Position numbers and translations under genes: made by a program
The notes under the pieces: model-generated
Seen by the model: the letters and a program-made list of their open reading frames with translations, nothing else
Database searches by the model: none
What the model was told of the DNA's origin: nothing
NCBI RefSeq assembly: GCF_949628265.1
Contig: NC_088789.1
Span: 31,117,883-31,181,882 of the forward strand
Length of the DNA stretch: 64,000 nucleotides
Source: Cloeon dipterum
Taxonomy: Eukaryota; Arthropoda; Insecta; Ephemeroptera; Baetidae
Reading direction: 5' to 3'
Part shown: positions 12,750 to 64,000 of the stretch, piece by piece
Numbering within the stretch: position 1 is the first letter of the stretch
How the letters are laid out: each line of letters begins with the position of its first letter

Positions 12750-13482
12750 GATTGAAATTTGTGATTTAAAAGGGGTTTTGTTACAGTTTCAGACGGGAAA
12801 ACTAATTTTTCTTCTAGAGCGTGTTTGTGAAGCGGTGGTAAACAAGGCAGAACACGCTGCTCATCTGTTTTACTGATACCGGTTTGTTTAAGATTTAAGA
12901 ACCGGTTTTTTTCGGCTAAGAATTTTAGGTAATTTCAATCAAAACGAGCCTTACAAGTGTTTTTTGAACTAATTTAAGAAAATAAAACTAAATAATGATG
13001 AATTTAGACTGAAAAATCTTGATTTATTACAGAAAACTGAAATTCTTCATCTATTTAACCGGTTATCAGTATAAAACAACCGGTTAAACAAACAGATCTA
13101 CGCCCATTTTGGCTCACAGCACTTAGCACGACTCCCATTGGCCAACGTCGCAAACAAGCGCGCTGATTGGCCGGAGCGAATGAGCAACCTACCGAGCTAC
13201 TAGATAATCACCCCCGCTTTTATCGTTTAACAAGCGGTGATTTCGGCTGCGGTAGTGAAATTCTCCATCCATTCATTCATTTGCTGGCTGACGTGCAGCC
13301 ACCCACCCACACCCGCCTCATCAGCACCTCTCAAGCTAGGTCAGCAGGTAAAAGACCCTGCGGAGGCAGTTGGCGGCCACGCCCCCCCTCGCAGCTCACG
13401 CATCCCTCATCCGTGATTTATCATAATTCCTGCTGTTGTTTGTGTTTTATTGATGCAGTTCGTGCGGCGACTGGCGGCCACG
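12750..13482. promoter_or_regulatory. Shared RPB5 / UMP-CMP kinase promoter region
   Basis: Divergent intergenic region. It contains four ACCGGT sites, near 12870, 12901, 13060 and 13079; the last three have the full AACCGGTT palindrome. Inverted CCAAT boxes (ATTGG) lie near 13136 and 13164. AACCGGTT is the known Grainyhead-type consensus. A likely 5' UTR intron of the kinase runs from CAG|GTAAAA at about 13348 to GATGCAG| ending at 13458. Regulatory function is inferred from motif and position. Confidence 0.5.
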
Positions 13483-15119
13483 ATGACGTCCAAGCCGGGA
13501 GTGGTGTTCGTGCTGGGTGCGCCGGGCTCCGGCAAGGGCACCCAGTGCGAAAAGATCGTCGACAAGTTCGGCTTCGTGCACTTGTCGGCCGGCGACCTGC
13601 TGCGCGAGGAGCGCAACACGCCCGGCTCGCAGTACGGCGCCCTGATCGAGGGCCACATCACCGCCGGCACCATCGTGCCCGTCGAGATCACCTGCAGCCT
13701 GCTCGAGAAGGCCATGCTCAAGTCCGGCGCAGACAAGTTCCTCATCGACGGCTTCCCCCGCAACCAGGTATTGATCTCGCCCTTGAACTACTTTTCGCAC
13801 CCGCCACCACCCCCGTTGCTTGGATGGCTTCCCTTAATGCGATGTGGATGGAAATTTTTGAAAAATAAATTGTTTTCCTCGTCTCTAAATTATAATTTTT
13901 TATTTTTTATAAAAAAAAATTGACAAGAAAAAGAAATAAAATTTAATATTTTCTTTAGAGGTAAAAAAAACCTTAAAAAATATTTTTTTAGCTATCTACA
14001 CATTTTAATTTTTATCTCTGACGTCAGCAGATTAAAATAAAAGAGGTCTGCAAGGTGCGATTTTGTTATTTTTTTTAAATTTAATTTTTGCTCCTGGAAA
14101 TTCAAGGTTTCTAGATTTTTCCCTTCTAATTCAAATATTTTTTTGCGAACACGCCACGTGAAAAAATCTAGTTTCCGGCCTTTAATTTTGCAACGTTTAA
14201 ATTGCCCTAAATTTCAACTTGTCAAGCACGATTACTGAAAATTCCGAAATTTCAGCTTGGAATTTTTAATATTTGTGTTTTTCCATATATTTTTGTTATA
14301 ACAATCTGGGAACAGTATTAGTTTTGATGTTGTCTTAAAATTATTTATCTAAAACATAAAATTGTTTTTGTTTTTCTTCCGTTTTATCTTTTCTTACAAC
14401 TGTAAAAGTTAATAAATAAAGTAGCTCTCCCGATTTAATATTGTAACAGATAAAATCAGACAAAAAGCAAGATTATTTAACTGTTTTTTTTTTTTTTTTT
14501 TTTTTTTTTTGAGGAAAAAACCGGAAATTTAATCTGCTTTCTTAATATAGGCAGTTTTTGACGTTACTTTCAACTGCTGAATTTTAATTAGGCCAAACAC
14601 AGACCCCTTTCAAAAATCTGCAATTAAAAAAAATTACTCCGGATTTAAAAGTTTTTTTCTCAGCTAACTTTTCATAATTTTTCTCACCCCTGAAGCAATT
14701 ATTTAATTCTTTAAGCTAAAAAAGAGGGCGTAACCGGTAAAATTACTGGACTAGAAAATTTTTAAAAATTTCAATAAATTGTAAAAATAACATTTTTGTA
14801 ACATTTCTCAAAATTCTTGTTGCAGAACAACCTTGACGGCTGGAACAGCGCGATGGGCGACAAAGTGAAGCTGCTGTTCGTGCTGTTCTTCGAGTGTCCG
14901 CAGGAGGTGTGCACGTCCCGGTGTCTGCAGCGCGGCGCCGCCGGCAGCGGCCGCTCGGACGACAACCCCGAGAGCTTGGCCAAGCGTTTCGTGACCTACA
15001 TCAACGCCACGATGCCCATCGTGGAGCACTACCGCGCCCTCGACCTCGTGCGCACCGTCACCGCTGACAGACCGCCCGACGAGGTCTTCGTCGACGTCTG
15101 CAAAGCATTTTCCGAGTAG
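13483..15119 (+). CDS. CMPK1: UMP-CMP kinase
   Basis: Two coding exons, 13483-13767 and 14826-15119, give 192 aa (the family has about 196). It transfers phosphate from ATP to UMP, CMP and dCMP in pyrimidine nucleotide synthesis. Visible motifs are the P-loop [20 protein letters not shown], the DGFPRNQ strand and GRSDDNPES in the lid. The intron falls exactly after PRNQ. The start at 13483 has a good context (GCCACGATG). An in-frame ATG ten codons upstream (13453) has a poor context and overlaps what looks like an acceptor, so it is probably removed by splicing. It would add [10 protein letters not shown], a short basic leader. Poly(A) signals cluster at about 15437-15455. Confidence 0.96.
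14483..14770 (+). repeat. Poly(T) run and R3 repeat copy 2
   Basis: In the UMP-CMP kinase intron. A run of about 30 T lies at 14483-14512. It is followed directly by an R3 copy with GGCAGTTTTTGACGTTAC, TTAGGCCAAACACAGACCCC and GGGCGTAACCGGTAAAAT. The rest of the intron (13768-14480) is AT-rich and shows nothing recognisable. Confidence 0.6.
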
Positions 15120-27462: not shown

Positions 27463-30400
27463 ATGTCGAAAGGAAGTAATTCCTCCTCGAACATCGACAA
27501 GCTGATGCGAAACACGCTGAAGAATGTCTTCAAGCACCAAAAATTCAAGAGCAAAACGCAAGAGCAGGCGATCAGGACCATTTTGCAAGGTAAACACCGA
27601 ATTTCGGACATTGTCACGGTCTGATTTCCTGTTTACCAGGCAAAAATGACGTCTTTGTGTCCATGCCGACCGGCTCGGGCAAGTCGCTGTGCTTCCAACT
27701 TCCTGCCGTCGCGCGTGCAGACAAAATCACCATCGTCTTCTCGCCTCTGCTGGCCCTCATGAAGGTAAATTCGCGGGTTTCAGGGTTGATTTGTATGTTT
27801 TAATGTATGAAATGTGCAGGACCAGTTGGATTTTTTAAATGAGAGGAAAATTGACGCGCGGACGATCAACAGTAAAATGACGAGCGTTGAGAGGAACGCC
27901 GTCCTGATGGACCTGAGGAGTGTCAAGCCAAGCACACGGCTCCTCTACATCACCCCTGAACAGGCCACAACCGACACATTCAGGGTAGGAAATTCTACAC
28001 CTATTTTAGTTAGTAATTTTAACAAATCCGGCCAATTAATGACACATTCCCTATCTTCCTATGTAAAAAAATCAGCAAAGTTGTGAATTTTTCGCGCAGA
28101 AACCGAGCAATAGACGCGGTTCATCGCGGGAAGGCGTATTTTCAAGTCAGAAACCGAATGTGGTCCATAGGGGAATTTTTAAAAAATAAATAAGACTGAA
28201 AAATTAAAAACAGCATAATTTTCGGGGGGGATGGGGAGACAAAGTGACTAAAATTACGTAGAAATTTACGGCGAGTCTGAAAAACTTTGGTTTTTTAATG
28301 TATGGCCCATAGAAGTCAAGTTATTAATTTTCAAAGTCGGAAAATCCCGATTTGTGACATTTCAAATTTTTGTTTTCGGGGCCCAGGCGGAGCCCTATGG
28401 GCCAAAGGGTGCCCATTCAAAAACCGATCGATTCCTCTCAGTTAGGCGCGTCCGCCCATGTGCGGTTTTCCAAATTCACACCATTTTTCAAATTTTTACG
28501 AATTTTATTCGTTTAATTTTTGGAAAAAGTCAAAATCTTTCAAAAAATTAGTTTTATTTTTATTTAAATTCGGCCGTTAATCTGATCATCGACCACGACC
28601 CCTCATCGGACACGTATTGGACGGGGCTTTAACCTGCGGTACCTTAACGACCTTTTTCAGGGTACCCCGCGACCTGAGATCCGCTTCCAGGTCGGTTTTT
28701 AATGATATTTTGGTAATTCCGAGCACATTTTGCGATACTCAGCGATATTTCATCCTTCCCTGTCACCGACCTTCGTCAGGTCGCGCGACCTGAGGGCCAT
28801 TTTTTGCGGTTTTGGTCAATTTTACTGGCACGACGGCGAATTTTACGATTTTTTTTTAAAAGGAAATATGGAAAATATTCCCAAGCGCAATATTTTAGGA
28901 TTCAAACTGAAATTTCACTGTTTTGTTTATAGGAGTTGGTGCAGAAGCTTTACAAAAGTGAGAAACTGGGCAGTTTCGTGGTGGACGAGGCGCACTGCGT
29001 GAGCCAGTGGGGCCATGATTTTCGACCGGACTACCTGAAACTGGGCCGACTCCGCCAGCTGTGCCCTCGCGTCCAGTGGGTCGCCGTCACCGCCACCGCT
29101 GGAAAGAATGTAATTTATTTTTATTCAATCGGTATTATTATTTATTTATTTTTATTTGTCGCAGGTCCAGAAAGACATTTACGAGCAGCTCAAACTGCAG
29201 AACCCTGCGGCGTTCAGGGTGTCCTGCTTCCGGAGCAATTTATTTTACGACGTCGTCTTCCCGGACACCATGGAGGGCCAGGAACTGGCTGATTTGGTCG
29301 ATTTCATGGATTGTGCGGCTGAGGATGTGAGAAAATCTAAATATCTGAGCCGTGAAATTTATATTTGATTTTTTCTCAGCCGAAAAACGTGTTTATTGAC
29401 CAAAAATTATGTCTTCAGGGCGACCGAGCCAGCGGAATCATCTACTGCCGCACGAGGAACCAGACCGAGGAATTAGTCTGTCGGTTAGGCTCCGTCGGCG
29501 TGTTCGCGCTCGCCTACCACGGAGGTAGAGAATTTTATTCCCTGAGAAATTTCCTAATTTCAATTTTCGTCACCGGTTTATCAGGCCTGAAAGACAAGGA
29601 GAGAATCAGGGTGCAAGACGATTGGATGCAGGAGAAATGCAAAGTGATCGCGGCGACTGTCAGTTTCGGCATGGGCGTCGACAAGGCCAACGTCAGGTGA
29701 GTTGCAAGTCTCCACACAAATAGATTAGGTCCTCAGGAACTTATTCCAGGTGTAAATTTGTCGGGAAAAATCGGCCTGAAAGTTAGGATTGTTTTAAAAG
29801 AAGAATTTTCACTGAATATGCGCTTTTTCCCTAAGAAAAGACTCACACTGTCAGATAGATCACGATGAGACGGTTCCAAATCGTTCGTGCCGCGGAAAAT
29901 TGGCCCATCTGCCCATTTCTCGCCCCGCCCACTTTTATTACTTCCCTCTGCATCGCTGGCGCACGAGTGAAGTTAGCTTTAGGAGAGGTCTACCAGATAG
30001 AGCTAATTTCAATCCGATCAGCTGAATCTTGCGCAAGATGCAGAGGGATATTTAAAAGTGGGCGGGGCGAGAGATGGGCCAATTTGTCGCGGCACGAACG
30101 AAATCATTTGAGAAAACTGTGAATTTTGGAAAAAACTAAAAATAATATGATTTTTTGCCAATTAAGGGGGATTTTTATCGCTGTTTAAATTAATTAGCAT
30201 TTTAATTACGTTTCCATTATAAAAAATATGACATTTTCGCACGTGGGAAGCAATAAATCTGTCTTTGTTTATTAATAAAAATTTTCTTGTGTCATGCGGA
30301 GTCTCTGATAGTCATATGGGTCCGAGTTTATCTCTGAAAATCATAGAAATAAATTAAATGAAAAAAAATAATTTTATCGCGATGATTCTCGAATAAATTA

Positions 30401-33400
30401 ACTTAATTTTGGGTATTTTTACTTTCCTAAATAAAATTTAAAGGTCTTTTGACAGCCACGTGAAATTTTCTGGCAATTTTTTTGCGAAAATAGTAAATTT
30501 TAGAAAAATTTGTTCAATAGAAAAAATCTGGAAATTTAATCAGCTGTCTAAAAATAGGCAATTTTTGACGCTGCTCATAAATACAAAAAATAACTTTTAA
30601 GAATCAAAAGTACTATTTTTTATCTGCTCACTATTAAACTTTAAAAGTTGAAAAAAAATTGATTTGTGACATTTCAAATTTTTGTTTTTGGGGCCCTATG
30701 TACCACAGGGTTCTCATTCCAAAACCAATCGATTCCTCTCGGTTTTGTGCGTCCGCCCATGTGCGGTTTTCCAATTTCTGACTATTTTTCTTATTTTCAC
30801 GAATTATTCGGTCAATTTTTCGAAAAAATCAAAATTTTCAAAAAATTGGTTTTATTTTTATTTAAATTCGGCCGTTAGTCCAATTGTCGACCACGACCCC
30901 TCATCAGACGCGTCTCGTCTTTGACCTGCGGTAACCTAACGACCTTTTTCAGGGTAATTCAGGCGGTTTTTTACGCTACAATCGACTGCTGAATTTTAAT
31001 TATACCAAACACACCCCTTTCGAAAAGCAGCAATTTTTTAAATACATACAAAATACCTTTCAAGACTAAAAAGTAATGTTTTTTATCTTCTCACATTATA
31101 TATTTTCCTAATTTTTCTCACCCCGGGAGTGCTCAATTAATTTCCTTTGCTCGAAACAGGAAAATTTCGAAAAATTGGATTTTGTTGCAAAAATTGGTCG
31201 GTTAGGGTTTGCTTTTCATGTAATTTAATTTTTTTTAATACTTATAAATTTCCAGGTTCGTGGTGCATTGGGGCCTGCCGCAGAACGTGGCCGGCTACTA
31301 CCAGGAGTCGGGTCGAGCGGGGCGCGACGGCCGGCCTGCGCGCTGCCGCATTTATTATTCGCGGCAGGAGCGAGACGCGGTCACGTACCTGCTGCAGAAG
31401 GCGCTCTCGGAGCAGACCAAGGAGATCAAAAAGCGGCAGGCCAAGGCGGCCATCGACAGCTTCCAGTGCATGGTCCAGTACTGCGAAAACTCCAAGTACC
31501 AAGCCTGAAAATTATTAATTTTTAAAAAAATGTTGACATTTTCGTGTTTTAGATGTCGACATTCTGTGTTTACTGATTTTTTTGGTGACGATCCGCCGGA
31601 ATGCGTGGATAAATGCGACTGCTGCGTTAACGCCAAGGCTGTGGAGAAGAAAATCACGGATTTTCGCATGAAGAGCGTCAAAACTGGCGGCGGCATCGGC
31701 AAGGCGGACTCGTACGACGCTGATTTGTACGGCGGAGGCAGAGCCGGACAAAAGAGGTCAATCTTCCATGAATTTCCTTTATTTTAATGGTTAATTTTCA
31801 TCTAAAAGGAAAAAAATCCGTTAAAATAATTAAATTTTGCCTCCAAACCTGGCCAATCAACGCCTTTGGGTGTCAATTGAAGGGAAATTAAGTCAAAATT
31901 ACCCTCCAGCCCTAAGGTAAATTTAAAAAATGGACCGCTTTTGGGTTAATTTGATGCAGAATTGCAGCACGAGTCTAACAATCATTGGTTTTTTACTCTA
32001 CGACCCATAGAAGCCGAGTTATTGATTTTTTTTAAAGTTAAAAACGTGTTGTGACATTACAAAATTTTGGGTTTCGGGACCCAGCCCGAGCCCTATGGGC
32101 TGGAGGCCATTTATTCTGGCACCAGTCGACGCCCCTCGGTCAGGCACGTCCCCAGTCTCCATTTTTTCCAAAATCTAACTGTTTTTCTAGTTATTTTGAT
32201 TTTTTTTTAATGTCGAAAGTTGGGAAATTCAAAATTTTGAAAAACATTTACCTTGAACCAGATTTCTCTTGGACATGACGCCTAGCCATCTTGACCAGGT
32301 AGTGAATGAACTTCATTTTCTGGGATTTTTATGTTAATTGCAAGGATATTTTCCTACATAAGTGGAATTTTGAGTTTTTCCGACCCCTTTTAGATTCCCT
32401 CAGCAAAATCTCCGGTTTGGGACAAAAATTCAAATATCTATAAATAGGACCTTCTGTAGAATTTAATTGCGCGTCTTTTGACACCTAATTCGTCCGTTTA
32501 TCTTGAAAACTGAGGCGCTACATAGGTTTCTTATTTTGTAGTTCGAGAAACTTGTGTTTTGGACGCTATCCATAAGGAAAATTCGCCATTTTTCCCGCAC
32601 TGAGACCCAGAATGCGATCTTTACCTTTCCATCACACAAGCAAGCCCGACGCCGGTCTGGAGACTGATTTTGAGGATATTCCTACCAATAGAAAAATTAA
32701 ATTTCTTTTTTTAGTTATTTATTTTGGAAAGTGCACAGCCGAAAATGGTTTTCTTTTTGTTAAAATTCGACGGATTAATGGATTTCAAGTCAAGAGGTCT
32801 CAAACGACTCTTCTTGATGAACCCTACCAACTGACCTGCCATGACGACCTTTTTCAGGGTACCCAACCCTGAAATCGGCTCCAGGGTCACATTTCGCGAT
32901 TTTTCCGACGCCGCCGGCCCTTCTTTTTCTTTCAACAACCTCACTCCAATAAATCCAGTCTGAAATTCATCCTATTTTGTTGCAGGGAGACGGATGAGTA
33001 CAACTCAAGCGTTTCTTACGAGTCGAGCAACGAAGGAACGGCCAAGTCGGCCATGAGCAGCTTGATCGGCAAGCAGTTTGCGATGCGCAAGGCGCCGCAC
33101 TCGATCAGCGCCAGGGAGCCGCTGCCTGCTGACTGCACCAACGGCTCCAGCAGGGTCAGGGCGGCCGCTAGCACCGTCACCAAGATCAACGGCCTCACCG
33201 TCCAGGTGAGAGATAAATTTTCAGTAGCCGCAGCCGCTTCTCTATCTTCATGTGTAAAAAAACCTGCCAAAAAACGCGAATTTCGTCGCAAAAATCGGGA
33301 CCATCGACGCCTTTTGGGGCCATGTGAGGGGAAATGAAATGAAAATCACATTCCGGCCCATAGGTGAATTTAAAGAAAAAAAACAGAAGAAAAAAGGAAC

Positions 33401-36084
33401 CTTTTTGGGGGCTTTTGGGCCGGTGGGGGCGCGCGGGGTCGCTTTTGGGTCCATTCAACGCAGAATTTTACCGTGAGTTCAACGAACATTGGTTTTTTAT
33501 CCTCCGACCCATAGGAGCTGAGTTATTAATTTTTAAAGTCGAAAAAACGTGACTGGGACATTACTAAATTTTGGTTTCCGGGGCCCAGCCCGGGCCCTAT
33601 GGGCCGGAGCAAGTTAATTCTTGCTTCAGTCGATGCCCCTCGGTGGGGCACGTCCCCCCGTGTTCGGAATTCCGAAATTGGACCATTTTTCGAATTACTA
33701 CGATTTTTTGAATGTCCAAATTTAAAAAAAAAACTATAATATTTCTCAAAATTATTACTCTTGAACCAGATTTTTCCCAGATATGACGCCTGTTCACCTT
33801 GGATTGGCATTTTTTTGGGATTTTTGTAACGAGAATCAAAAACATTTCGGCAGGTTCCCTTTTAAAATAGAATTTCGTTTTTTTATTTTTTTTTTACCAT
33901 TTTGGCTTCTTCGGTTCAGGACAAAAATTCGACATAGTGAATCCCTAATCGACGGAGAATTTATTGGGGAGTGTTTTGACACCAATTATATCCCGATCGG
34001 ATAAAAATTGTAGGACAAGTTAATTTTTGAAGTTAAAAAATCGCAGTATTTTGGACATTTGCAAGGGAAATATTTAGAATTCGCCATTTTTTCTGCAACA
34101 GGGACCAGATTTTGCAATCTTTACTGTTCCGTCAAACACGTAACCTCGACGCCGTTCTGAAGACCGATTTTGAGCTTTTTCGCGCCCGTGAAAAAATTAT
34201 TTTTTTATTTTTTCGGTTTTTCGCCTGAAAAGGTGGAAATTTATTTTTTGCTGTTTAAATTCGACGGGTTGACGGATTTCAAGTCACGAAGTCTCAAATG
34301 ATAGGTCTCGATGAGGCCTTCCACCTGATGACCTTTTTCAGGGTACCCCACCCTGAGATCGGTCCCGGGGCCACTTTTCCCAATTTTTCCGACTCCGCTG
34401 AATTTATTCAAGCTCGCCAATAAATATAATTTCAGTCGAGGGAAATGTACCTGTCGCTGGTGGAGGAGGCGCTGAAGAAGAACAGCGACTTGTGCCACGA
34501 AGGCCCGGAGGCGAGGCCGGACGAAAAGACGATCGGACAAATTGCTGTGCAATTGGAGTACCAGGCCTTCAGCTCCAACAAAGTGGCTTCCATCTACAGA
34601 AAAATGCTCATGGACATGGTCAGTTCCTTGAATTGAACTAGAGTACGAAAATGTCCCTTTTCAATGCTTTCAGATGTCAAAAATAAAGAAAAACACATCG
34701 AACCTGTTGGCCGACCCGAGTCTGCAGACGCGCGTCGAGACGAAAGAAGAGCCGCTGGCGAGAACTGCGCCGGTGGAAATCAAGACCGCAACTCAGGTTC
34801 TCGCCGAGCGGACCAAAAAATCGGAGAACGGCTACACGAGCGCGTCGAAACTGCTTCCGAAGGAGCCCTCGGGGGCGGAGGCGAATAAGAAGCCCGTCGA
34901 GAGCGGCAGGAAAACGAACAAGCCGGGCAAGGACAACAAGCAGCAGCTGTCCATCGTCAGTTTTTTCGAGCCGAAAGCAGCTCAGGGGAAAAAGGAGGCC
35001 AAGCCGCAGGAGAAGAAGCGGAAAATGGCGGCGGTTCAGGTGGAGCTGGCGAGCAAGAAGAGCAAACAAAGCGGCAGCTCGCCGAGCAAAGCTGTTCTTG
35101 CCGAGAGAATTATCAAACTGCTCAATCCGCACTACAAGACTGGCAAAATCAAGTCCAAGGAGGCCTTCAAGAAGATTGCCCGCATCCTTTCCCACCACCT
35201 CTCGCAGCAAAATACAACAGGTCAGTTTAAAATATAAAAAAAGAAAATTTGCCGATTTTTAGGGGCTTTTGGGTAGGAGGGGGGCGCGTGGGGGTTGCTT
35301 TTTGGTGTAAATTCGACGCAGAATTTTACCATGAGTACAACGAACATTGGTTTTTGGCTGTATGTCCCTTAGAAGCCAAGTTATTGATTTTTAAAGTTGA
35401 AAAAACGAGATTTGGACATTACTAAATTGTAGTTTCCGAAGCCCAGCGGGGGCCCTATGGGCCGGAGTCAGTTTATTCTCGCTCCAGTCGATGCCCCTCG
35501 GTGGGCCACGTTCCCCCGTGTACGGAATTCCGAAATCAGACCATTTTTCGAATTACTACGATTTTTGGAATGTCCGAATTTTGACAAACTCAAAAATTTA
35601 AAATATTTTTTCTCAAACCTGAAATTTTATTTTAATTTCTACAGCCTCCGTCAAATAGATCTCGATCAGAGCATTCCAAATCGTTCGTGCCGCGGCAAAT
35701 TGGCCCGTCTCTCGCCCCGCCCACTTTTATAACTTCCCTCTGCATCGCGCGCGCATGAGTGAAGTTAGTTTTAGGAGAGGTCTACCAGATGGAGCTCTCA
35801 TCAGCTGACTCTTGCGCGCAATGCAGAGGGATTTAAAAGTGGGCGGGGCGACAGATGGACCAATTTGCCGCGGCACGAACGAATTCATGTGAGAATCTGG
35901 CAAAAATCGCGTGATTGGCCATCAGAGCGGGGCGTGTCACTAAGGGCTTACGCGATTGGTGAATTTTCAGTATTTTAAATTGCAGTTATTTGTTTCAGAT
36001 GAGGAGACGCTGCAAGCAACCGTCTTTTCGTATTTGGACCAAAAGAAGGAGTTCCGAACGGAAAAAGACGTTTTCGATCTGTGA
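27463..36084 (+). CDS. RECQL5: RECQ5-type ATP-dependent DNA helicase
   Basis: Thirteen exons: 27463-27589, 27640-27764, 27820-27984, 28933-29109, 29165-29326, 29419-29524, 29585-29696, 31256-31495, 31553-31756, 32986-33205, 34436-34618, 34674-35220 and 35999-36084. They give 817 aa; an alternative acceptor at 29379 for exon 6 adds 13 in frame. RecQ5 unwinds DNA 3' to 5', dismantles RAD51 filaments and binds RNA polymerase II. Visible motifs: Walker A MPTGSGKS (about 51-58), DEAH (157-160), [21 protein letters not shown], zinc-binding CRH..CDCC, the RECQ5-specific [13 protein letters not shown] segment, a PIP-box-like QLSIVSFF for PCNA, and a C-terminal SRI-like module ([20 protein letters not shown]) that in human RECQL5 contacts RNA polymerase II. 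There is no HRDC domain, as expected. Several long introns carry R1, R2 and R3 repeats. Confidence 0.97.
28088..28800 (-). repeat. R1 repeat copy e
   Basis: RECQ5 intron 3. It runs from CGCGGGAAGGCG through GGAGCCCTATGGGCC, CCACGACCCCTCATCGGACA and CAGGGTACCCCGCGACCTGA to the palindromic end near CAGGTCGCGCGACCTGA at about 28778. Confidence 0.75.
29874..30108. repeat. R2 foldback MITE copy 2
   Basis: RECQ5 intron 7. The left arm is TCGTTCGTGCCGCGGAAAAT plus GGCCCATCT and CCCCGCCCACTTTTA. The right arm is the inverse, ending GTCGCGGCACGAACGAA. The centre AGGAGAGGTCTACCAGATAG is in inverse orientation to copy 1. Confidence 0.8.
30520..30655 (+). repeat. R3 repeat copy 4 (partial)
   Basis: RECQ5 intron 7. 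Matches the R3 left half: AAATTTAATCAGCTG, AGGCAATTTTTGACGCTGCT and CTATTTTTTATCTGCTCAC. It joins R1 copy f directly. Confidence 0.55.
30655..30955 (-). repeat. R1 repeat copy f (partial)
   Basis: RECQ5 intron 7. Contains GGGGCCCTATG, CCAATCGATTCCTCTCGGTT, CGACCACGACCCCTCATCAG and ACGACCTTTTTCAGGGTA. It then breaks off at an R3 copy, which suggests nested or adjacent insertion. Confidence 0.7.
30960..31240 (+). repeat. R3 repeat copy 5
   Basis: RECQ5 intron 7. Blocks: TTTTTTACGCTACAATCGAC, CAAACACACCCCTTTCGAAA, TGTTTTTTATCTTCTCAC, TTCGAAAAATTGGATT and GGTCGGTTAGGGTT. Confidence 0.6.
31840..32950 (-). repeat. R1 repeat copy g (divergent)
   Basis: RECQ5 intron 9. Contains TACTCTACGACCCATAGAAG, CCCGAGCCCTATGGGCTGG, GTCGACGCCCCTCGGTC, CGACGCCGGTCTGGAGAC and GACCTTTTTCAGGGTACCC. 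It is diverged from copies c and e and resembles copy h. Confidence 0.65.
33225..34430 (-). repeat. R1 repeat copy h (divergent)
   Basis: RECQ5 intron 10, about 1.2 kb. Contains TCCGACCCATAGGAGCTGAG, GGGCCCTATGGGCCGGAG, GTCGATGCCCCTCGGTGGG, CGACGCCGTTCTGAAGACCG and GACCTTTTTCAGGGTACCCC. Same subtype as copy g. Confidence 0.65.
35232..35600 (-). repeat. R1 repeat copy i (partial)
   Basis: RECQ5 last intron. Contains GGGGGCCCTATGGGCCGGAG, CCAGTCGATGCCCCTCGGTG and CCCCCGTGTACGGAATTCCG. Same subtype as copy h; only the first third is present. Confidence 0.65.
35680..35890. repeat. R2 foldback MITE copy 3
   Basis: RECQ5 last intron, just after R1 copy i. Arms: TCGTTCGTGCCGCGGCAAAT and its inverse ending GCCGCGGCACGAACGAA. 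Inner arm CCCCGCCCACTTTTATAAC and CCTCTGCATCGCGCGCG; centre AGGAGAGGTCTACCAGATGG. Confidence 0.8.
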
Positions 36085-52988: not shown

Positions 52989-55040
52989 TTATATTGAATG
53001 AACAGCAGGGAATGAGACTAGTTTGTCTAAGTAGGGAAGTACATAGAGCTTACAAGAAATTCTATTTATGGGAGAAGTAATAACTCTGTGAGTCGCCTTG
53101 ATAACAAAAATTTCGAGGAGAGATGAATCAATCGGAGAAACAAAAAATGGCTTTTCAATGGCGTAAACTCGTCCTGAAAGTTTACAATCAGAATTTTCAC
53201 CATTGACTGACGAAATTTGAACGATGCAATCATCGATTTTACAAAAACTATCATTTAAAGAGTCAGCTACAAAAGACGAGTAATATAACTTAAATTTGGT
53301 TACTTTTCCATTTTTGCTCTTCTCTAACAATGGACTTTCGTGGTAAATTTTGTACATTTTGTAATATCTATCTACTTCATGCAATCTTTTTTCGATTTGA
53401 GCAATAGGCGTACTGGAAGATTTTACACGATCTCGGAGGGGCCTGTATGAATTTTCGAACGAGTATGTCGAAAGTTCATCAAGTGGCAACTTTGTGACTC
53501 TCACATCTGAAGTCAAGTGAATCAAATTGTGCACAGAATATACAGTGTCTCTATAGCCAACAATATCGTCATATTCATTTGAAAATTCGCGTAGAAGGGT
53601 TTCAGCGAGGTCAAGCATTGTAGAATTTGTGGAACAGCTGCGTGTTCGCAAAATTCTAATTCCAACGCAGTACTTTAAGAACGTTTCGTACACTCGAGAG
53701 CTCAAAAACGGCTTCAACAAGAGAAAGGCAAAGTATAGTGCAAAGTCCCGAAAAGTGCATGCTTTCCACTGTGCGAAGAATTTGATTGGAACTAACGGCC
53801 TCTGGAAATCACGGCTAACATAAGGTTTCATAGCAATCATGGCTTCATCCAACAGATCAATTTGATGTATGCTAAGTTGAATTCTACTTCCTCTGGAAGC
53901 TTTCCGGAAAAGCTTTGCGCAAAATCTTTTTGTAACTCCTTCGTCACAAAGGTGCAAAACATCAAGGAAAAATTGCGAAATAAAATTAAGGTTTTCAACT
54001 TTAACTAACGCAGGGAGGGACTTTTGATGGTCTGTGTACTCGAACTTTCGAAATGCGATATTGTCGCGTAAGTCAGAATCCTCACATGTTTTAAAGCACA
54101 TCACATAATTTATTTTTTCAGCAACGCAACGACAACGCTCGCAGCCTTGCTTAGAGTTGCTGCCTACAATCCCTTTGCAAAAACAGCGAGCTGGGGAGTC
54201 GCACGTGAATCCCACAATTCTAATTTTAATACGCACAGGTCCAATTTCTAAATATCCTAAAGTGATGACAGACAATTCATGGGCAAGATCAACTAGAAAA
54301 GCTTGAACGGGTTTTGACGAACCCTCAAAAATTGCAATCACAATAGGGGGAATGTTGTATTTGGTGGACAAAATTCTAAATGAAATAGGCCAGATGCCTT
54401 TTCTTGTGGTAGAACATTTATACAAAGCGACTCCATCAACTGATAACATAATTTCGAGCTCCTCATTAGAAAACAAGAAGTCCCTGAACTCAGCGTTATT
54501 TTCACAAATATACGTAAGACGAACAACTAGCCCAAAATACGCATAGAGACCAGGAGTGCCATCAAAATTACTCATTTTAGAGTATGAACTCTTTTTTAGT
54601 GATTGCAAAGCTGTTGAAGCTGAAATTGGCAGTTCAGGGTGGAGCGGGTGCAAGATTTTTAGCAGTAATGTGTAAGAATTTAAACTATGAGGTTGAGTGG
54701 AAATGAACCACTCATTTAAGGGGTCTAGTAAGCTTTGTCCTTGGCGTCTAGCTAACACCATGCTTAAGTCACAACTGGGAACCTCATCCTCAGACTCAGA
54801 TGACTCAACACTAATGCAATCATATTCAAGAGGTTGAGTGTCAGAAAGATCAACATCAAAATTAGTTTCTGATTCTGAGGATGACGATCCTGCAAAAAAT
54901 TCTCTCACGTCAGGATAAGAGTTGCCGCTCAAAACAGGTACAGAAGGATTTGCTTCATCATTTGCATTCAGATTAAGCAATAATCTATCTCTATTGAGTC
55001 TTCTAGCTCTCAAAAGACGCATTTTGTCTGTGCTACTCAT
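52989..55040 (-). CDS. Tnp2-like transposase of the EnSpm/CMC element
   Basis: A single open frame of 683 aa from an ATG at 55040. It resembles animal Tnp2/EnSpm-type transposases. It has SVDGVALYKCS (about residue 200), TCDSPARCFCKG, a cysteine pair CERCRC, the FLDVLHLCDEGVTKR segment, QWKACTFRDFALY, YSVHNLIHL and SFENSYRPLRDRVKS, in the order known for this group. The first 90 residues are Ser/Glu-rich. It would cut and join element ends in the nucleus. The start codon overlaps the stop of the upstream DUF4806 frame (ATGAGTAG), and the transposase frame stays open for about 140 nt upstream of that ATG. A spliced or re-initiated product is therefore possible. Confidence 0.85.
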   Translation of the reverse strand: MSSTDKMRLLRARRLNRDRLLLNLNANDEANPSVPVLSGNSYPDVREFFAGSSSSESETNFDVDLSDTQPLEYDCISVESSESEDEVPSCDLSMVLARRQGQSLLDPLNEWFISTQPHSLNSYTLLLKILHPLHPELPISASTALQSLKKSSYSKMSNFDGTPGLYAYFGLVVRLTYICENNAEFRDFLFSNEELEIMLSVDGVALYKCSTTRKGIWPISFRILSTKYNIPPIVIAIFEGSSKPVQAFLVDLAHELSVITLGYLEIGPVRIKIRIVGFTCDSPARCFCKGIVGSNSKQGCERCRCVAEKINYVMCFKTCEDSDLRDNIAFRKFEYTDHQKSLPALVKVENLNFISQFFLDVLHLCDEGVTKRFCAKLFRKASRGSRIQLSIHQIDLLDEAMIAMKPYVSRDFQRPLVPIKFFAQWKACTFRDFALYFAFLLLKPFLSSRVYETFLKYCVGIRILRTRSCSTNSTMLDLAETLLREFSNEYDDIVGYRDTVYSVHNLIHLTSDVRVTKLPLDELSTYSFENSYRPLRDRVKSSSTPIAQIEKRLHEVDRYYKMYKIYHESPLLEKSKNGKVTKFKLYYSSFVADSLNDSFCKIDDCIVQISSVNGENSDCKLSGRVYAIEKPFFVSPIDSSLLEIFVIKATHRVITSPINRISCKLYVLPYLDKLVSFPAVHSI

Positions 55041-57523
55041 CTCCTTCAGATTCTCCTGCTGTCGACTCCTCCGACGAGTTCTGATTGTTGAAATATGCAA
55101 GAAGTGGGTTATCACTCGTAGACCTAGCAGGGAGAGGCACGTCATTCTTGGCTGACTTGACTGTGGATCGTGAACTATCACAGCTCTCGTTGATAGGTCG
55201 GGGCACCTTCTTCTTCAAGCTTAGTGCTTTGGCCAGTGCTGTCGAGCCACTACGGTTCTCGACGCAAAAAGGGGATTGGGCAAACACTTCAGACATTCCA
55301 GCTGTCAATTTCTGAACATCACATTTCACGTTGAGTACTTTGCAACATGCCATCGAAGACTCTGAAATAACAGGTTATGCAATAAATTTTTAAATTATTT
55401 CGAATAATAACGTACCAACAATCGCCTCGAACAGCTCTGGAAATGCTTTCTTTAAAGAAGTTTTTCCATCTTTCTTGACCACTTGATTGCTAAGTTTGCA
55501 ACGGAGAGTCTCTGAGAAGCACTTTTTGGTGACAGACCTGGCCACATCTTTATCACTTTCACCAGTGCCGTATGCAACAAGCATTCGTGACTGCAATCAA
55601 TAAATTGAACGTACACACTTAATTAACAAGTATTTATCTAGCTTTAATCCTTGAGAGTGAGCGTGGGCTAGTTATAGGCGACCCAACGTCGTTTTTGTGG
55701 TATTCAAATCCAAAATTTGTTCCAAAAAATCCTAAAATTAGCAGTTCTTAAAAAAAGAGATTAATACACAACTTAGGTGTTTTAATGGTTTTTTAGGGTA
55801 GAGGTATAGTAAAATAGAATAGTGGTAGTCGAAATTCATTGGTGTGTAAACTTTCATTTTATAATTAGATGCAGTTTTTCACTGTTTTTGTTGAAATTAA
55901 TATGAATAAATGCGGTTCTTGGGGAATCAAATGGGTGCTAAGGGATTGACAGAGGCTTTTAGGTATTATAACAAATAAAAGAGAAAAAAAATAAAATTTT
56001 GAACCACGCATTCCCTAAAAATGCGCGAGATTACATCGACTTATTAACTATATGCCATTAGTCCTATTTTTGGGGTTGCGCAGGGGTTCTTTGAGGAGGA
56101 AATTTGAAGCAACTTCTTAATTTAATTGATCAACACTCAATTTCAAATTGATTTAATAGCACTGAACTCTCAAGGGTTAATTAAAAATATACACCTACCA
56201 GTGCGTCTTTCTCCCCGGCTTTGTTACTCTTTAAAGAGTTTGTAATGGCTTGGCATTCACCCAATGTGTCCAGAGGGAGTTTGTGTTGCAGTTTCGAAGA
56301 GACTAGAAGCGCTTTACCATCTTTAGAAACCAGTTTGATAGCCAAGTTGTCAAGCGACGCCGACATCTTCTTTACCATCTCTTGGACCTCTGTCAATTGG
56401 TCAGTAAGGGCAACATTTGCTCGTATGTCTAGAAGGGAAAAAATTATTTGAATATCATGATGAATTTTAATCTACCATTAATTGACTCACTGAATTCACA
56501 ACAAGTTTTGTTGCATGCCCCTTTATTATTTATTGAAAGGCCATCCATTGCAGTTTCTGGTTGTTTTGCTGGAGCAGCAGGTCTTGAACCTCTTCGCACA
56601 ATCGTAGGTGAGATTTCAGGCGTCTCTGGTGACGCTTGACTGAAGAAGGTGTCTGTGAAAATTGAACCTTTAAGTATAAAAACTAGGATATCTTTAAAGA
56701 CAATAATTTTACCCTGAGGTTCGTGGCTGACGTTAAAATTTTGGCTGTTTGCCACATCTTCGTGGTCCTCCATATCAGACGACACACTTGGAGAATTAGG
56801 AAAGGAAGCTGCATAATTCAAGAATAAGAATTTATATCACAATAATACGTTAAAAATCGAAATATTTTTACCAAATTCTCTGCACCCACCCATTGTCTTC
56901 TCACTGTCAACTTGCAAACGGGGTCTCTTTTCTGGACGAGAACCACCTAACACACACAATAAAAATACAGTCTACTTTTTACCAGCATTATTGTGTAAAA
57001 ATAAAATATTTATAACTAAATAACATATTTTTACCTTTATATCCTGAAGCTGAAGATACGAAGTCACTCTCAGCATCACCGTACTTTTGGGTGGGTTTTC
57101 GGAATCTGCCTTCAGCTTCGCTCTCCTCTGTGTCGCGGATTGGCTTTTGCATTGAGTAGAAACTCCTTACACGATCTTTCGCACTTAATTGCGTTGCTGA
57201 AACATACGGACCTGTAATTTAAACATAAAAAAATATATATATATATACTTACAAGACAATCTCACGAATGTAATGCGTCTTGTGACCATAGCAGACCCAT
57301 CACTAACAAGGCCTTTCTTGCCAGCATTCATCAATGCATCAAAAAATTCCATATTCTTGGGGTAAAAGCATTTGTCTTCTGAAGTAATCCATACTCTTGG
57401 CACAACCTCAATTATAGGCCGCTCATTGCGTTCGGCTGCAGTTTGGTCAGGGTCAATGAATTGAACAATGGCCCACGTTTTCCTAGATTGTCGGAGTTTC
57501 GTCATGAAGTCAACAGTGGCCAT
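55033..57523 (-). CDS. DUF4806 accessory protein of the EnSpm/CMC element
   Basis: Eight exons: 57523-57253, 57196-57035, 56946-56872, 56808-56713, 56652-56476, 56428-56199, 55590-55416 and 55361-55033. Phases agree, giving 504 aa. The N-terminal domain (about 1-90, with WAIVQFIDPDQ and VVPRVWI) is typical of the first protein of such animal elements. A Ser/Pro-rich middle follows. The DUF4806 region (LPLDTLGECQAITNSL, then MLVAYGT, FSETLRCKLS and KAFPELFEAIV) spans about residues 300-395. The role of DUF4806 proteins is not established; DNA-end binding or regulation of transposition is inferred from the constant pairing with transposase. It ends in TAG overlapping the transposase ATG. Confidence 0.8.
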
Positions 57524-58364: not shown

Positions 58365-58430
58365 ACGTAACAACTAGTGGATGCGCACGCATTCACGCAT
58401 GCGCACGCATTCACGCATGCGCACTGATAT
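58365..58430. promoter_or_regulatory. Tandem NRF-1-like sites in transposon 5' region
   Basis: ATGCGCACGCATTCACGC is repeated in tandem, giving several TGCGCA / GCATGCGC motifs that resemble NRF-1 (erect wing) sites. It lies upstream of the DUF4806 start inside the element, so it is a plausible promoter. Function is inferred. Confidence 0.45.
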
Positions 58431-58628: not shown

Positions 58629-59021
58629 CTATGGCTCGAAATGCATGAGAAAATTGTTGTAATTAATTTTAAAGGTTTGAAGTTATTTTTATCAGGCTGA
58701 AAATCGTGTAAGATAAAAAAACTACAGCATTCTATCGTAAGTTTTTATAATTTAATATAAAATCCATGCCTTTTCTGTTTAAAAAATTAATTCCCGAAGC
58801 AAGCGATTATTTTGCAAAATTTATTTATTATTTTTAATCTGCGCAAAGTTTTTATATTTTAATTATAGCCATTTTTTCCATGAGCAATTTGACCCTTTGA
58901 AGTTTGAAAGCCTTGAGTTTTTCTCTTCCCATTCCTGACAAAATGATTTCATCCTATATTCTGCTCGCATATATCTTTATTCAGCCGAAAATTACACTGA
59001 TTTATTGTGTTACATATATTG
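58629..59021. other. 3' flank of lectin-OBP gene
   Basis: AT-rich. Probably the 3' UTR and terminator of the minus-strand gene, with reverse AATAAA (TTTATT) near 58824 and 58978. No gene is seen. Confidence 0.4.
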
Positions 59022-62000
59022 CTATTCGCGTTCGGTGCAGACGAACTGGTAGGTGTCGGTGGTGCACCTGACCTCGGTGACCTTTCCGCTGAACATGGTG
59101 TTGTTGGCGGTGAGCGCGAGGCAGCGGTTGGTCAGCGCCGTCGTGTTGGACGATGCGGCGAACTGCAAGGCCGGGATCGCACGCTTCGACGGGCACCAGC
59201 CGAAAAACGAGACGCAACCCTCGTTGTTGCCGCCTAAGAAGAACAACTTGCCCGCCTTCGTCTTCTGCAGGGCTACGAAAATGAATTATATTTTATTTCG
59301 TTTTTAGGCGTTGGATAGACCACCATTGTCAGCCTGGATGAAGCAATTAAATTGGTCAATTGTGTAGAAAAAGGCCAGCGTCATGTTCAGCGTGCAGCAT
59401 TTGGTCGCGGCCCCAGCGTAGTCCAGCTAAAAATCAGATTTTTACCTTTTAGACGCTAAATTTATATATTCCAATCGATTCCTGAGGGTCGAAATAGGTG
59501 GGGTGAGTGATTTTTCCGGTCAAAAATGATTTCCTGGGGTCAGAGCAGAGGCGCAAAGCAAATCACACGTTCCTTTGGCGCGCAAAACGCTTGAATACTG
59601 TTTAAGCGTCTCCCCTCTGACGTCACAACCATGCTCGGTGCTTGGCTTTGGCGTCTGAATGAGAGAGTAGGCGACGGCAGAGACATCTGCTCATACCCAG
59701 CAAAAGCAGTGCAGCAGAAAAGTCACGTGGATCCCATTGGCCAAGAATCTCTTCGCTAACTCCTTTCCAAACTCCCTCCTAACAGTGCGTGCCTGCGCCT
59801 GCTCTTGGCCAATGAGATGGCGGGATTGAGTCACGTGACTGCTCCAGCTGCGTGAACTGTGCTTGCTGGGTAGCAGATGTCTCTGCCGTCGCCTGCTCTC
59901 TCACTCACAGTCAGCTGCCAAAGCCAAGCACCAAGCACGGCTGTGACGTCACAGGGGTGAGACTTGCGCAGTAGCGACTAAAAAATTCAAACCAACGTTC
60001 GTTTTCTGCTTATGCACGTCACAAAACCGTTTTCTATCGAATTAATTACTGATCCCACCTGTTTCGACCCTCAGGAATCCAATGGAATATAAATAATTTT
60101 AAATATCAAGCAGAAAACTATTAAAAATTGTCAGTCTTTTGGTATTTTCCTTACAAAAACTGTGGAGACGTAGTATCTTTTGCCACAGGCAGTGAGCGGG
60201 TAGCCATAAATGCTGCCGTAGTTGTCTCCTGCCGCGTCTGCACACATTTCAAATTAAAATCAACGGATTTATATATTAAAATTAAAATCAACTCTGTCCA
60301 TTGGCCAGGTTTGTCACGTCAGCAGTCTGCATCAAGAAACACTTAAATATTATTTTCCCAGCACAAATTACAATCTTACATTAATGTTGCAAGTCGGGTT
60401 GACGTTGCAGTCTACATTAGTGCACGAGACAGGCGCCCCTGACTGAAAGAAAAATTATTTTTAACCGGAAATTCGAGAATAATTAGGTACCGAAATGTCC
60501 TTGACCGACTCCTCCACCATTCCCGAGACGACGCTCGGAGATTTTTCAGCCGTGCACTGGAAAGCCTGGGCGATTGCCTCACAACCACCAGCTGGGGGAA
60601 AAATACAAAATAATTATGATTTAAAAAGATAATACGCACATTTTTTGTTTTTGCAAACGTCGAAAATGTCAAAGCTCTCCTGAAGGGCGTCGGTGTTCTT
60701 CGAGTTGGCCTCGACCATTTTCAGCACGTTTGCCGCATTTGGAACTCCGTTTTTGACCAAACCCAAACTGTCGCCCATGCACTTGAAATAGCACTGAAAG
60801 GAAATTTTAAAAGTGATCTAATTTTTTGGTCATAAAAGCGTCACTTTAAGTCTGGCTGAAAATGTTGTCGACGTGAAAATGTTTCCAAGCTCCGCTGGAA
60901 TTTTTTTATTTATTAAAATAATTTTTTTTAATTATAGAAAATCTCACAGTCGGTCACGTTAAATGCTTTCTGACACATTTCGCTCTTTGCTTTTGTCAAA
61001 CTGTCTCCGTTTGTATCGTCCATCTGCGAAAATAATATGTCCAATGTGAAAGTTTGTTTCTAAAATAAAAAAACATAATTAACAATTTGAAATAAAAACA
61101 TTAATTAATTGCGATTTTTATCTCTGTTAAAAACTAACCTACCAGGAAAATATCATTAAAAACTTTTTGGAGAGAGTTAAATTCCGAAAATTCCAAGAAT
61201 TTTCCAGCATTTTCAATATTAACAAATTTTCAAGACTTGACCTCGCAAATGTAGTCCGACCGTGTATCACAATTAACGGCCTGGAGGGAGGAGAGGGAGC
61301 CCGAGGCGGTCAGGGCGACCCTGACGCAGGTGTTGGCCTTGTCCGAGGGCGGCTGCGCGCTGCCCCAGCGCACGGTGCTGGCGTTGAAGAACTGGTCGTC
61401 GAAGGCGCACCACCCGAACTGGTCGTCGCAATCGAGGTAGGCGCCCGAGGTCCAGAACGAGCCCTGAAGGTCGGCCATGCCCCCGCGGGTCACGTTGTCC
61501 AGGCAGTCGACCTGGCTCAGGCTTTGCACAGACACCAGCCGCATCCCGATCTGCTCGCACTTGCACTTCGCCTCAGACCACGAAAGCTGTGTTTTTTATT
61601 TAATTTTATTTCTTTGATGAAGTTTTTTTTTAATTAAAAACCTTTTAAAAGTAAATAAAGTAAGGGGGGAAAAACAATTTTGAAATTTTCAGAGCACTTT
61701 TTAGTGCCTTTTTTGCTAAATTCAAATTTTAAAATTTAGAAAAAAAATTATTTTTGGATATTTTGTCTTTAATTGAAAATTACCTTTAAAATGAAATAAA
61801 AATTCTTATCTGATTGAATTTAAATATAATCAGTTGGACCAGGAAATAAAAATAGGTGACAATAATTATTTTTTAAGTCCGTATCTGATCCGATAATTTT
61901 TTCAGGTTGCACGCAGTCTGTAAAACAAACCGTCGAGTTGGAGTTTTTGTCTGTGAACATGAAGTATTTCTTGCATTGAGACGTCCAGCGGCCGTAACTC

Positions 62001-63463
62001 GTTGCATCTGCGTCGTTTATTATTAATTTATTTCCTTGAAAGGAACAAATATGATATCGAAAAATTACATTTCAGCTTTCCTCCTCCTTCAAACAGGGAC
62101 GCCTGTGGGAAGAAAGTTAATTTTTAAATAAAATTTCAACCCCAAATTCACGTTTTTGGGACAGCTTCTTGGGCAGAACGGTCTGAAGCACGGCTTGGGC
62201 GTTGGTGGACCCTGAAAACACCCAAATTTTTATCTTTTCAAACGTTTCTACGGCGAATGGCTGGACTGATTTTGGTTTTCAGCACGTCAAAAGAAAGCAA
62301 ATTAATTGAAGAATGCAAAATAGCTAGATTGAGTCTGAAATCGCAGCGGAAATGCATTAAAATAAAATTTATCACGAAAGTATACGGTGGCGCCATCTGC
62401 TGGCGGCTTCGAACACAAACTGGGGAGTTACCCTGCAGGCGAACATCTGCCTCGCGGTGCAATTTCGCATTCCGAGCGAGCTGTTGAAGTAGCTAGTGAC
62501 GTTATTGGTCGTCTTCGAAATCTGCAGCCCGACGCAGTCCCTGTCCACGTAGCTCAGGTTGCTCTGCCCCTCCAGGGCGATGCTGCTCAGGTTGACAAAC
62601 CTCTTCAGCGAACACCATTTGGGGTTTGCCGGCGAGTCGACGCGCGACCCAGACGTCCAGTAGTTCAGGTTGTACTGCCACCCTGAGTAAGGGGAGGGTG
62701 ATGTCAATTGTTTTATTTAAAATTAATGAGGGGAGGTTCGTATATACCCTTCAGGAGGGTGTCGAAGCACTGGAACTCCTGCGGCTCGTCCAGGAGGAAG
62801 GGGGTCATCCCCAGCTGGCAGCACTGGTCCCAGTTTTCTTGCCAGTTACCCTGGGACATTGGAGGGGAAATACTCGCAGTATGATTTATTAAATCTGTAA
62901 TAGAAAATTCTTTACCAGAGTTGTACCGAATAAAAACGTAAAGTTGCAGCTATTGATCCAATTTCCGTAACTCAAAGGGTCTAATAAAAACATATTTTTA
63001 TAAGAATTAAAATTTAACTAGGAAACAAACCAATCAAATTTCCCTTGCTGTTGAAAAGTGAGGTCTAAAGGGGTAAAATAATTAAACATCCTTTTTTAAA
63101 CTATAAATTGAATTAACACCTACATCTTTGACACATTCCTGAGGGCATGACGGCTCGAAAGACTGCAATTTTGAATTATTTCGTTCACGCCCTTATTTTA
63201 ATAATTAAAATAAAATGCCTCGCAAATGAAATTGTTGGGAGCGTTGCAGTCGGAAAACCGGAGTCCGCTCTTGGTGTCGTCGCCGGCGGTGAGGACGTAG
63301 GTGTTGCACTTGTCTGTTATTTTCGTCGCCGTCGTCTGCAGGCGGTTGATGGCCACGTCCACGTCAACCGAGTAGTTGTTCACGTTCGGACACCACACGC
63401 TCTGGCAGAAAGGGTCTGTCAACCCTGACGTCCAGAATGTTGTACCTGACTCTTTCAAAACGT
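59022..63463 (-). CDS. Secreted multi-C-type-lectin protein with an internal OBP domain (5' end outside window)
   Basis: Nineteen exons, 63463-63219, 63162-63124, 63064-63031, 62980-62916, 62850-62748, 62682-62432, 62211-62152, 62102-62069, 62007-61931, 61586-61242, 61023-60948, 60894-60845, 60793-60640, 60591-60491, 60442-60380, 60326-60293, 60237-60155, 59426-59324 and 59272-59022, with agreeing phases (about 721 aa seen). Order: C-terminal half of a C-type lectin domain (WTSG..C..FICE), a second and a third lectin domain (WTSG..WC; LSWSEAKC..YICE), an odorant-binding domain of about 115 aa with six cysteines (MCQKAF, CYFKC, DVCKN, GGCEA, FQCTA), and a final lectin-like domain ending CTERE. 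Cys-rich linkers (PSCPQEC, PFCPRSC) separate units. It is presumably extracellular; ligands are unknown. One intron seems to start GC rather than GT (63218). Upstream exons lie right of the window. Confidence 0.85.
59459..60092. repeat. ~630-bp foldback element with paired CRE and E-box motifs
   Basis: Intron of the lectin-OBP gene. Ends are inverted: ATTCCAATCGATTCCTGAGG on the left, its near inverse on the right. Most of the length pairs with itself: both arms hold TGACGTCA, GGTGCTTGGCTTTGGC, GCGACGGCAGAGACATCTGC, CACGTG and ATTGGCCAAG. There is no coding sequence. Confidence 0.85.
62235..62415. repeat. Half copy of the ~400-bp foldback MITE
   Basis: Intron of the lectin-OBP gene. Closely matches the right arm of the element at 38627-39030: TTTCTACGGCGAATGGCTGG, CACGTCAAAAGAAAGCAAAT, AATGCAAAATAGCTAGATTG and GGCGCCATCTGCTGGCGGC. 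Confidence 0.75.
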
Positions 63464-64000
63464 CTGAAAAAGATTTATAAATTGGTTTTCTGGGATCTCA
63501 AAATCAAGGGATTTGAGAATTTGGGAAATTCGACCTTTTGGACGCCATCAGGGTGCTCAGGTTAAACCCTGATGGCTTCCAAAGGGTCAAATTGTACATA
63601 TTCTGAAAGGTCTTGACTTGGCCGTTTTAAAGGTGTGCAGATCTGGCAAATCAAGACATTACAAAGCCCGTCAGGCGTCGTTTAAGTGTCTACTTTTCGG
63701 AATTTAATTGAATTGATCGCTTGAAGGCTGCCCTGATGCCAGGGTTCGATTTCTAATAAGTTCAGATGGTCTTATCTGTCCTCGGGAGTGATCTCCAGCA
63801 TTAATAATCATCCGATCATGCAATTTAGATTTTTCCTATGAGCTGTAAAACGCCCTTTTTTACCCTTTGACCTTTATTTCTCAAAAACTGAAAGGTTCCC
63901 CGCCCCTGAAAATTTCTAGGCATGTTTCACACACTTGGGGAAACATTTTGTCACATACTTAGAAAAATATTGAGCAAGCCGTTTTTAAAAGACATTCATA
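63464..64000. other. Intronic or upstream sequence of the lectin-OBP gene
   Basis: No exon found. A short perfect-looking hairpin lies near 63526-63592: GACCTTTTGGACGCCATCAG pairs with a downstream CTGATGGCTTCCAAAGGGTC. It could be a small inverted-repeat element. Confidence 0.45.

Follow-up and report, generated by a model that had tools for sequence, protein, structure and literature searches.

Most odorant-binding proteins (OBPs) that are known are small carriers that stand alone, although OBP-OBP tandems also occur, and C-type-lectin-like domains (CTLDs) occur in tandem in the family of LY75 and C-type mannose receptor 2, which are vertebrate membrane proteins. Excerpts of the literature, on which all citations in this report are based, describe the OBP-type domain as a module of a longer chain in OBP-OBP tandems and in D7 proteins (PMC3428353, PMC2258175, PMC6123390), and mosquito serine proteases that carry a CTLD (PMC5289563). 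An excerpt of PMC6275457 reports no OBPs in the mites studied there, with zero in its table for other mites, a tick, a centipede and a water flea, so that the presence of an OBP suggests an insect; another describes a mayfly with a very large OBP family (PMC7250882). Here we analyse a minus-strand locus at positions 63463-59022 of a 64,000-nucleotide stretch of DNA from Cloeon dipterum (Ephemeroptera, Baetidae; RefSeq assembly GCF_949628265.1, contig NC_088789.1, forward-strand positions 31,117,883 to 31,181,882), referred to below as the window. From its sequence we read the locus as probably a single gene in which an OBP has been exon-shuffled into a secreted protein with several CTLDs. Such a domain combination, if real, would be unusual.

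Results

Nineteen exons on the minus strand, from 63463 to 59022, join into a single reading frame, 721 codons long and closed by a TAG, with no frameshift or internal stop. The exon edges were set by hand from the sequence, and the agreement in frame and in splice dinucleotides is thus partly built in; with these edges the frame is kept at all 18 joins, an AG acceptor precedes every exon (19 of 19), and the donor is GT, giving a GT-AG intron, in 17 of the 18 cases. The remaining join, from CTLD1 to linker A (63219/63162), would require a GC donor (GAG/GCATTT) and hence a GC-AG intron. Read without splicing (63218-63213), the last exon of CTLD1 meets a stop after six further codons (AFYFNY). 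Fourteen of the 18 introns measure 48 to 65 bases, short lengths that fit a compact genome. Two AATAAA polyadenylation signals lie 3' of the CTLD4 stop, one at 59001..59006 on the minus strand and the other beginning at 58981. The domain order in the model is the end of CTLD1, CTLD2, CTLD3, the OBP, a cysteine-rich linker and CTLD4. An earlier note on this DNA had described a minus-strand chain with agreeing phases, and such a chain was recovered as one open product of 721 residues, on hand-set edges; each of the motifs named there (WTSG, WC, YICE, MCQKAF, CYFKC, DVCKN, GGCEA and FQCTA) is present on the minus strand where the note put it.

The OBP block comprises four exons of 76, 50, 154 and 101 nt, together 127 codons (61023-60491). 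Exon 1 (60948..61023) starts in phase 0 and carries the first cysteine, exon 2 (60845..60894) follows, exon 3 (60640..60793) holds the second, third and fourth cysteines, and exon 4 (60491..60591) holds the fifth and sixth and ends in phase 0. The earlier note had counted six exons; the fifth and sixth of these (60442-60380 and 60326-60293) turn out to be a linker pair, like those before CTLD2 and CTLD3. The block as a whole is of phase 0-0 and lies between CTLD3 (end 61242) and linker C (start 60442), a position that elsewhere in the array is taken by a linker.

The OBP assignment, for which the earlier note had proposed a profile search, was supported by PBP_GOBP (PF01395), which accepts the domain with 40.8 bits (E 2.7e-10) against a gathering score of 22. 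When the joined 721-residue chain was searched, Pfam gave 35.4 bits for PBP_GOBP and 28.8 bits for Lectin_C. A sequence search of the Protein Data Bank listed ten chains, of which odorant binding protein 4 (6jpm_A) ranks first at E 1.3e-4 and alone falls under 0.001; it is followed by four chains named as OBP or D7 and by the mosquito protein AGAP005208-PA, presumably also an OBP, at E 0.011 to 0.11, and the last four of the ten are nucleotidases with E 1.2 or 1.3. The six cysteines are spaced 25-3-41-7-8, which fits the classic OBP motif C1-X15-39-C2-X3-C3-X21-44-C4-X7-12-C5-X8-C6 as given in an excerpt of PMC2707629. Shuffling the OBP segment reproduced the six-cysteine motif in 0 of 20,000 trials, and shuffling the whole cysteine-rich chain did so in 856 of 20,000 in a loose form and in 21 of 20,000 in a stricter form. 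Because some whole-chain shuffles keep the motif, the cysteine pattern by itself is weaker evidence than the profile; the Pfam match and the segment shuffles reject a chance cysteine pattern as the origin of the OBP assignment.

Codon use in the block also resembles that of the CTLD exons. On codon log-odds for which CTLD exons served as the coding set and introns as the contrast, the OBP scores +0.49 per codon, versus -0.18 +/- 0.12 for shuffles (n=500, highest 0.22), and its five other frames are negative and contain 1 to 6 stops each. No further OBP copy was found in the window, and a scan of viral contigs with the OBP found no relative. A scan of genome contigs, made with the OBP only, gave one match, in Bacillus fonticola (query residues 1-54, 43% identity; E 3e-5, counted over candidate stretches only), which we judged to be due to chance, and NCBIfam gave one match to the OBP (E 0.11), far under its cut-off.

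The exons around the OBP follow a unit plan that is common to three units, each with linker exons 1 and 2 followed by CTLD exons a, b and c, all on the minus strand. Linker exon 1 measures 39, 60 and 63 nt in linkers A (SFEPSCPQECVKD; 63124..63162), B (GPPTPKPCFRPFCPRSCPKN; 62152..62211) and C (SGAPVSCTNVDCNVNPTCNIN; 60380..60442) and is of phase 0-0 each time, and linker exon 2 is 34 nt long and of phase 0-1 in 3 of 3 units (63031..63064, 62069..62102 and 60293..60326); the linkers were matched by eye on length, phase, place and cysteine content. The CTLD exons have phases 1-0 (a), 0-1 (b) and 1-0 (c), so that each CTLD ends in phase 0. In both CTLD2 (exon a 62916..62980, b 62748..62850, c 62432..62682) and CTLD4 (exon a 60155..60237, b 59324..59426, c 59022..59272 with the TAG stop), exon b measures 103 nt and exon c 251 nt. 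CTLD3 (exon a 61931..62007) has a single main exon of 345 nt in place of b and c (61242..61586), which ends at YICE in phase 0 with the donor GAG/GTCAAG. In the intron between CTLD2 and linker B, an ATG at 62396 (62396-62286) opens a moderately hydrophobic stretch and is a possible alternative start; splicing from it to linker B would keep the phase.

Assignment to the CTLD superfamily rests for CTLD3 on its profile match, to Pfam Lectin_C (E 1.1e-7, 32.9 bits, gathering score 22.6), and for CTLD2 and CTLD4 only on likeness to CTLD3 (BLASTP E 6e-15 and 2e-6, each as a single comparison); CTLD4 is strongly diverged. CTLD3 also resembles LY75 (E 6.1e-6) and C-type mannose receptor 2 (E 1.7e-4). 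The first CTLD is represented by its last exon only (WTSG..WC..FICE; 63219..63463), an open frame with an AG acceptor, which phmmer matched weakly with CTLD3 (E 0.0057 among the window's open reading frames) and in which Pfam recognises nothing within the joined chain. The gene probably extends past the window edge at its 5' end: none of the open reading frames in the 537 bases from 63464 to the window edge matched the four CTLD queries, and therefore the gene start and the N-terminal part of the first CTLD probably lie outside. NCBIfam found nothing for linker A-CTLD2, a scan of viral contigs with the CTLD3 main exon found no relative, and the window gave no convincing extra CTLD copy, the weak matches at 32810, 35231 and 51979 having E 0.012 or worse. 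For the CTLD3 main exon, structure prediction from the single sequence reached a mean predicted local distance difference test score (pLDDT) of 41.5, and this model was set aside and not used.

The earlier note had proposed a secreted, receptor-like molecule that binds both sugars and small hydrophobic ligands, and two parts of this proposal found no support. EPN/QPD or WND motifs, the rule for sugar binding according to an excerpt of PMC6275457, are found in 0 of the 4 CTLDs, and the one near-match, EPS, lies in linker A, outside any CTLD; according to the same excerpt, carbohydrate binding is absent from most CTLD proteins, and the motif rule has exceptions. As to the receptor-like character, the 721 residues show no apparent membrane helix (maximum hydropathy over 19 residues 0.99), with the 5' part of the gene outside the window. 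The predicted protein is rich in disulphides and contains N-glycosylation motifs, from which we infer that it is secreted; no signal peptide was seen, the 5' end lying beyond the window.

Several further features were recorded around the gene. A 641-base stretch in the intron between CTLD4 exons a and b (59458-60098) has inverted arms of 75 nt that are 77% complementary, with inner pairs up to 94%; it looks like a palindromic element of the miniature inverted-repeat transposable element (MITE) type, and no second copy was found in the window. Just upstream of the CTLD1 exon, about 119 bases (63501-63619) are self-complementary, being 73% identical to their own reverse complement, and a perfect 18-base tandem repeat of 2.4 copies lies just downstream of the gene (58381-58424). 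A domain scan covered 10 of the window's open reading frames. A neighbouring minus-strand frame of 741 codons (52992-55214), which we guess to be a transposon-related gene, matched DUF1258 below the cut-off (E 6.5e-6, 26.3 vs 33.1 bits). On the plus strand, a DEAD helicase piece followed about 5 kb on by an SRI domain (28933-35234) hints at a RECQ5-like helicase gene, and a frame at 13417-13920 is of the adenylate kinase family (ADK, E 5.1e-27). No tRNA was found in the window with bacterial settings, and no Rfam family reached its gathering score there.

Discussion

We suggest that the locus is probably one gene of repeated units, each a cysteine-rich linker and a CTLD, cut in all likelihood on its 5' side by the window edge, and that an OBP without its own signal peptide was inserted into it as a four-exon block of phase 0-0 at the unit boundary between CTLD3 and linker C. 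One gene is favoured because the phases agree at both edges of the OBP while linker C and CTLD4 continue the unit plan, because neither AATAAA nor ATTAAA occurs beside the OBP (in the CTLD3-OBP gap or the OBP-linker C gap) and AATAAA is found twice after the CTLD4 stop, and because the gap of 218 bases between CTLD3 and the OBP (61241-61024) offers no leader of useful length. That gap holds four ATGs, only one of which, at 61101, joins openly to the OBP. The leader is then 6 or 9 residues long (for the third join on the list the intron would have to be as short as 24 bases), and no leader in the gap is long enough for secretion. The acceptor of OBP exon 1 has the top score of the 19 acceptors (12.74, leave-one-out).

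Other observations weigh against a single gene. CTLD3 and OBP exon 4, if left unspliced, each run into stops of their own. The CTLD3 donor scores 1.62 leave-one-out, or 4.35 when included in the training set. Only two of the 17 GT donors, which range from 0.41 to 6.57, have a lower leave-one-out score, and the value is close to the median for the 206 GT sites not used in the model (1.69). Variant polyadenylation hexamers are present, with GATAAA at 61122 before the OBP and, past linker C, AATATA at 60277 and TATAAA at 60273. The ATG at 61101 shares the frame of the OBP, 26 codons ahead of it, and has a hydrophobic start blocked by one TAG; the stretch it opens (61101-61024) is possibly due to chance or possibly a relic of an OBP signal peptide. 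Third-position GC is 0.60 in the OBP vs 0.76-0.80 in the CTLD parts, as is expected of a different origin and also of a separate gene. Finally, CTLD2 and CTLD4 match no Pfam family.

A stand-alone OBP gene on the same strand, nested in an intron between CTLD3 and CTLD4 and skipped by a CTLD transcript that splices from 61242 to 60442, strikes us as unlikely. OBP genes are normally single genes, the CTLD3-linker C join stays in frame without the OBP, unspliced exon 4 reads through KDISVPNYSRISG to a TAA, and the ATG at 61101 would supply a hydrophobic start; but the in-frame TAG stops that ATG, its spliced leaders are too short for a signal peptide, neither AATAAA nor ATTAAA separates the OBP from linker C, and the 218 bases before the OBP contain no TATAWA or initiator match. 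The strong acceptor and the phase-0 donor at the OBP edges also speak against nesting, though a phase-0 GT could be there by chance. Less likely again, in our estimate, are two genes, the first (CTLD1-3) ending at YICEVKS-stop (61230) and the second consisting of the OBP, linker and CTLD4; even then an OBP and a CTLD would be fused, the OBP forming the N-terminal part. This arrangement takes in the in-frame stop three codons past the end of the CTLD3 exon and the low rank of the CTLD3 donor, but the gap lacks a leader of useful length for the second gene. Of 22 phase-0 first-exon candidates starting in 62500-61023, the 15 most hydrophobic were examined, and the best among these, the ATG at 62396 (hydropathy 2.06 over 10 residues; donor scores 1.37 and 2.42), could be used only if linker B and CTLD3 were skipped. 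After the CTLD3 stop, moreover, the only polyadenylation hexamer within the gap is the GATAAA variant, and the linker-CTLD unit pattern carries on across it.

That the locus is decayed or misassembled, with false joins or pseudogenic sequence in the OBP exons or in the array, appears highly improbable: one donor is GC, an inverted-repeat element sits in the CTLD4 intron and CTLD4 has diverged strongly, but the model's 721 codons are intact, codon use in the OBP is coding-like and its six cysteines are kept. The fusion put forward in the earlier note is the best reading of the gene structure, with its OBP accepted by the profile; it stands as a gene model, and the separate-gene alternatives just described remain its competitors.

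On the single-gene reading, the exons of a mature OBP would have been shuffled into a phase-0 intron, and the product would enter the secretory pathway by a signal further upstream. Since no leader of useful length precedes the OBP and the gene model joins it to CTLDs, we regard it as a domain of OBP type and not as an ordinary OBP, a view that would change if the OBP gene were nested. With its six cysteines kept, the domain may still fold and hold a small hydrophobic ligand. Because 4 of 4 CTLDs are without EPN/QPD and WND, we propose them as non-canonical modules for binding or assembly, probably independent of sugar, which would anchor the OBP, as a holder of hydrophobic ligand, on a surface or in a complex. 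The block could moreover be an alternatively spliced cassette, because its phase symmetry lets skipping keep the frame open: CTLD3 joined directly to linker C gives an open frame of 594 residues. A new class of secreted insect proteins, in which the OBP is a splice-switchable cassette within a multi-CTLD scaffold, is a considerably more doubtful proposal. If it is true, one gene would yield two products, a CTLD protein and a version that carries a ligand and is anchored to a surface or partner recognised by the CTLDs, and an exon-shuffled OBP would exist outside the family of stand-alone carriers. An OBP shuffled into a CTLD array, whether or not as a cassette, would show that the fold can be built into larger extracellular proteins and would offer a handle on roles of OBPs outside the antenna, since the CTLDs would set where the ligand is held.

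No OBP-CTLD fusion was found in excerpts of the open-licence papers PMC5289563, PMC12758981, PMC6275457, PMC4851354, PMC7330086, PMC5381652 and PMC6123390, which does not show that none has been published, and the systems that come nearest each share part of the architecture. Classic OBPs (PF01395) are like the present domain in six-cysteine spacing, profile match and mature-domain length; they differ in being small single-domain proteins with their own signal peptide, whereas no such peptide was found here and the domain lies between CTLDs in the gene model. In the double-domain or dimer OBPs (Nasonia, Drosophila Obp83cd/ef) and in the D7 salivary proteins, as the excerpts describe them, the OBP domain is likewise one module of a longer chain; the partner in the former is another OBP domain, and D7 is described as a fusion with an unknown gene, whereas the partners here are CTLDs. 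LY75 and C-type mannose receptor 2 share tandem CTLDs with the present gene, which differs from them in its cysteine-rich linkers and its OBP domain and for which no membrane helix is apparent in the part seen. The mosquito CTLD serine proteases, again as excerpted, resemble it in combining a CTLD with an unrelated domain in one insect protein, the partner there being a protease.

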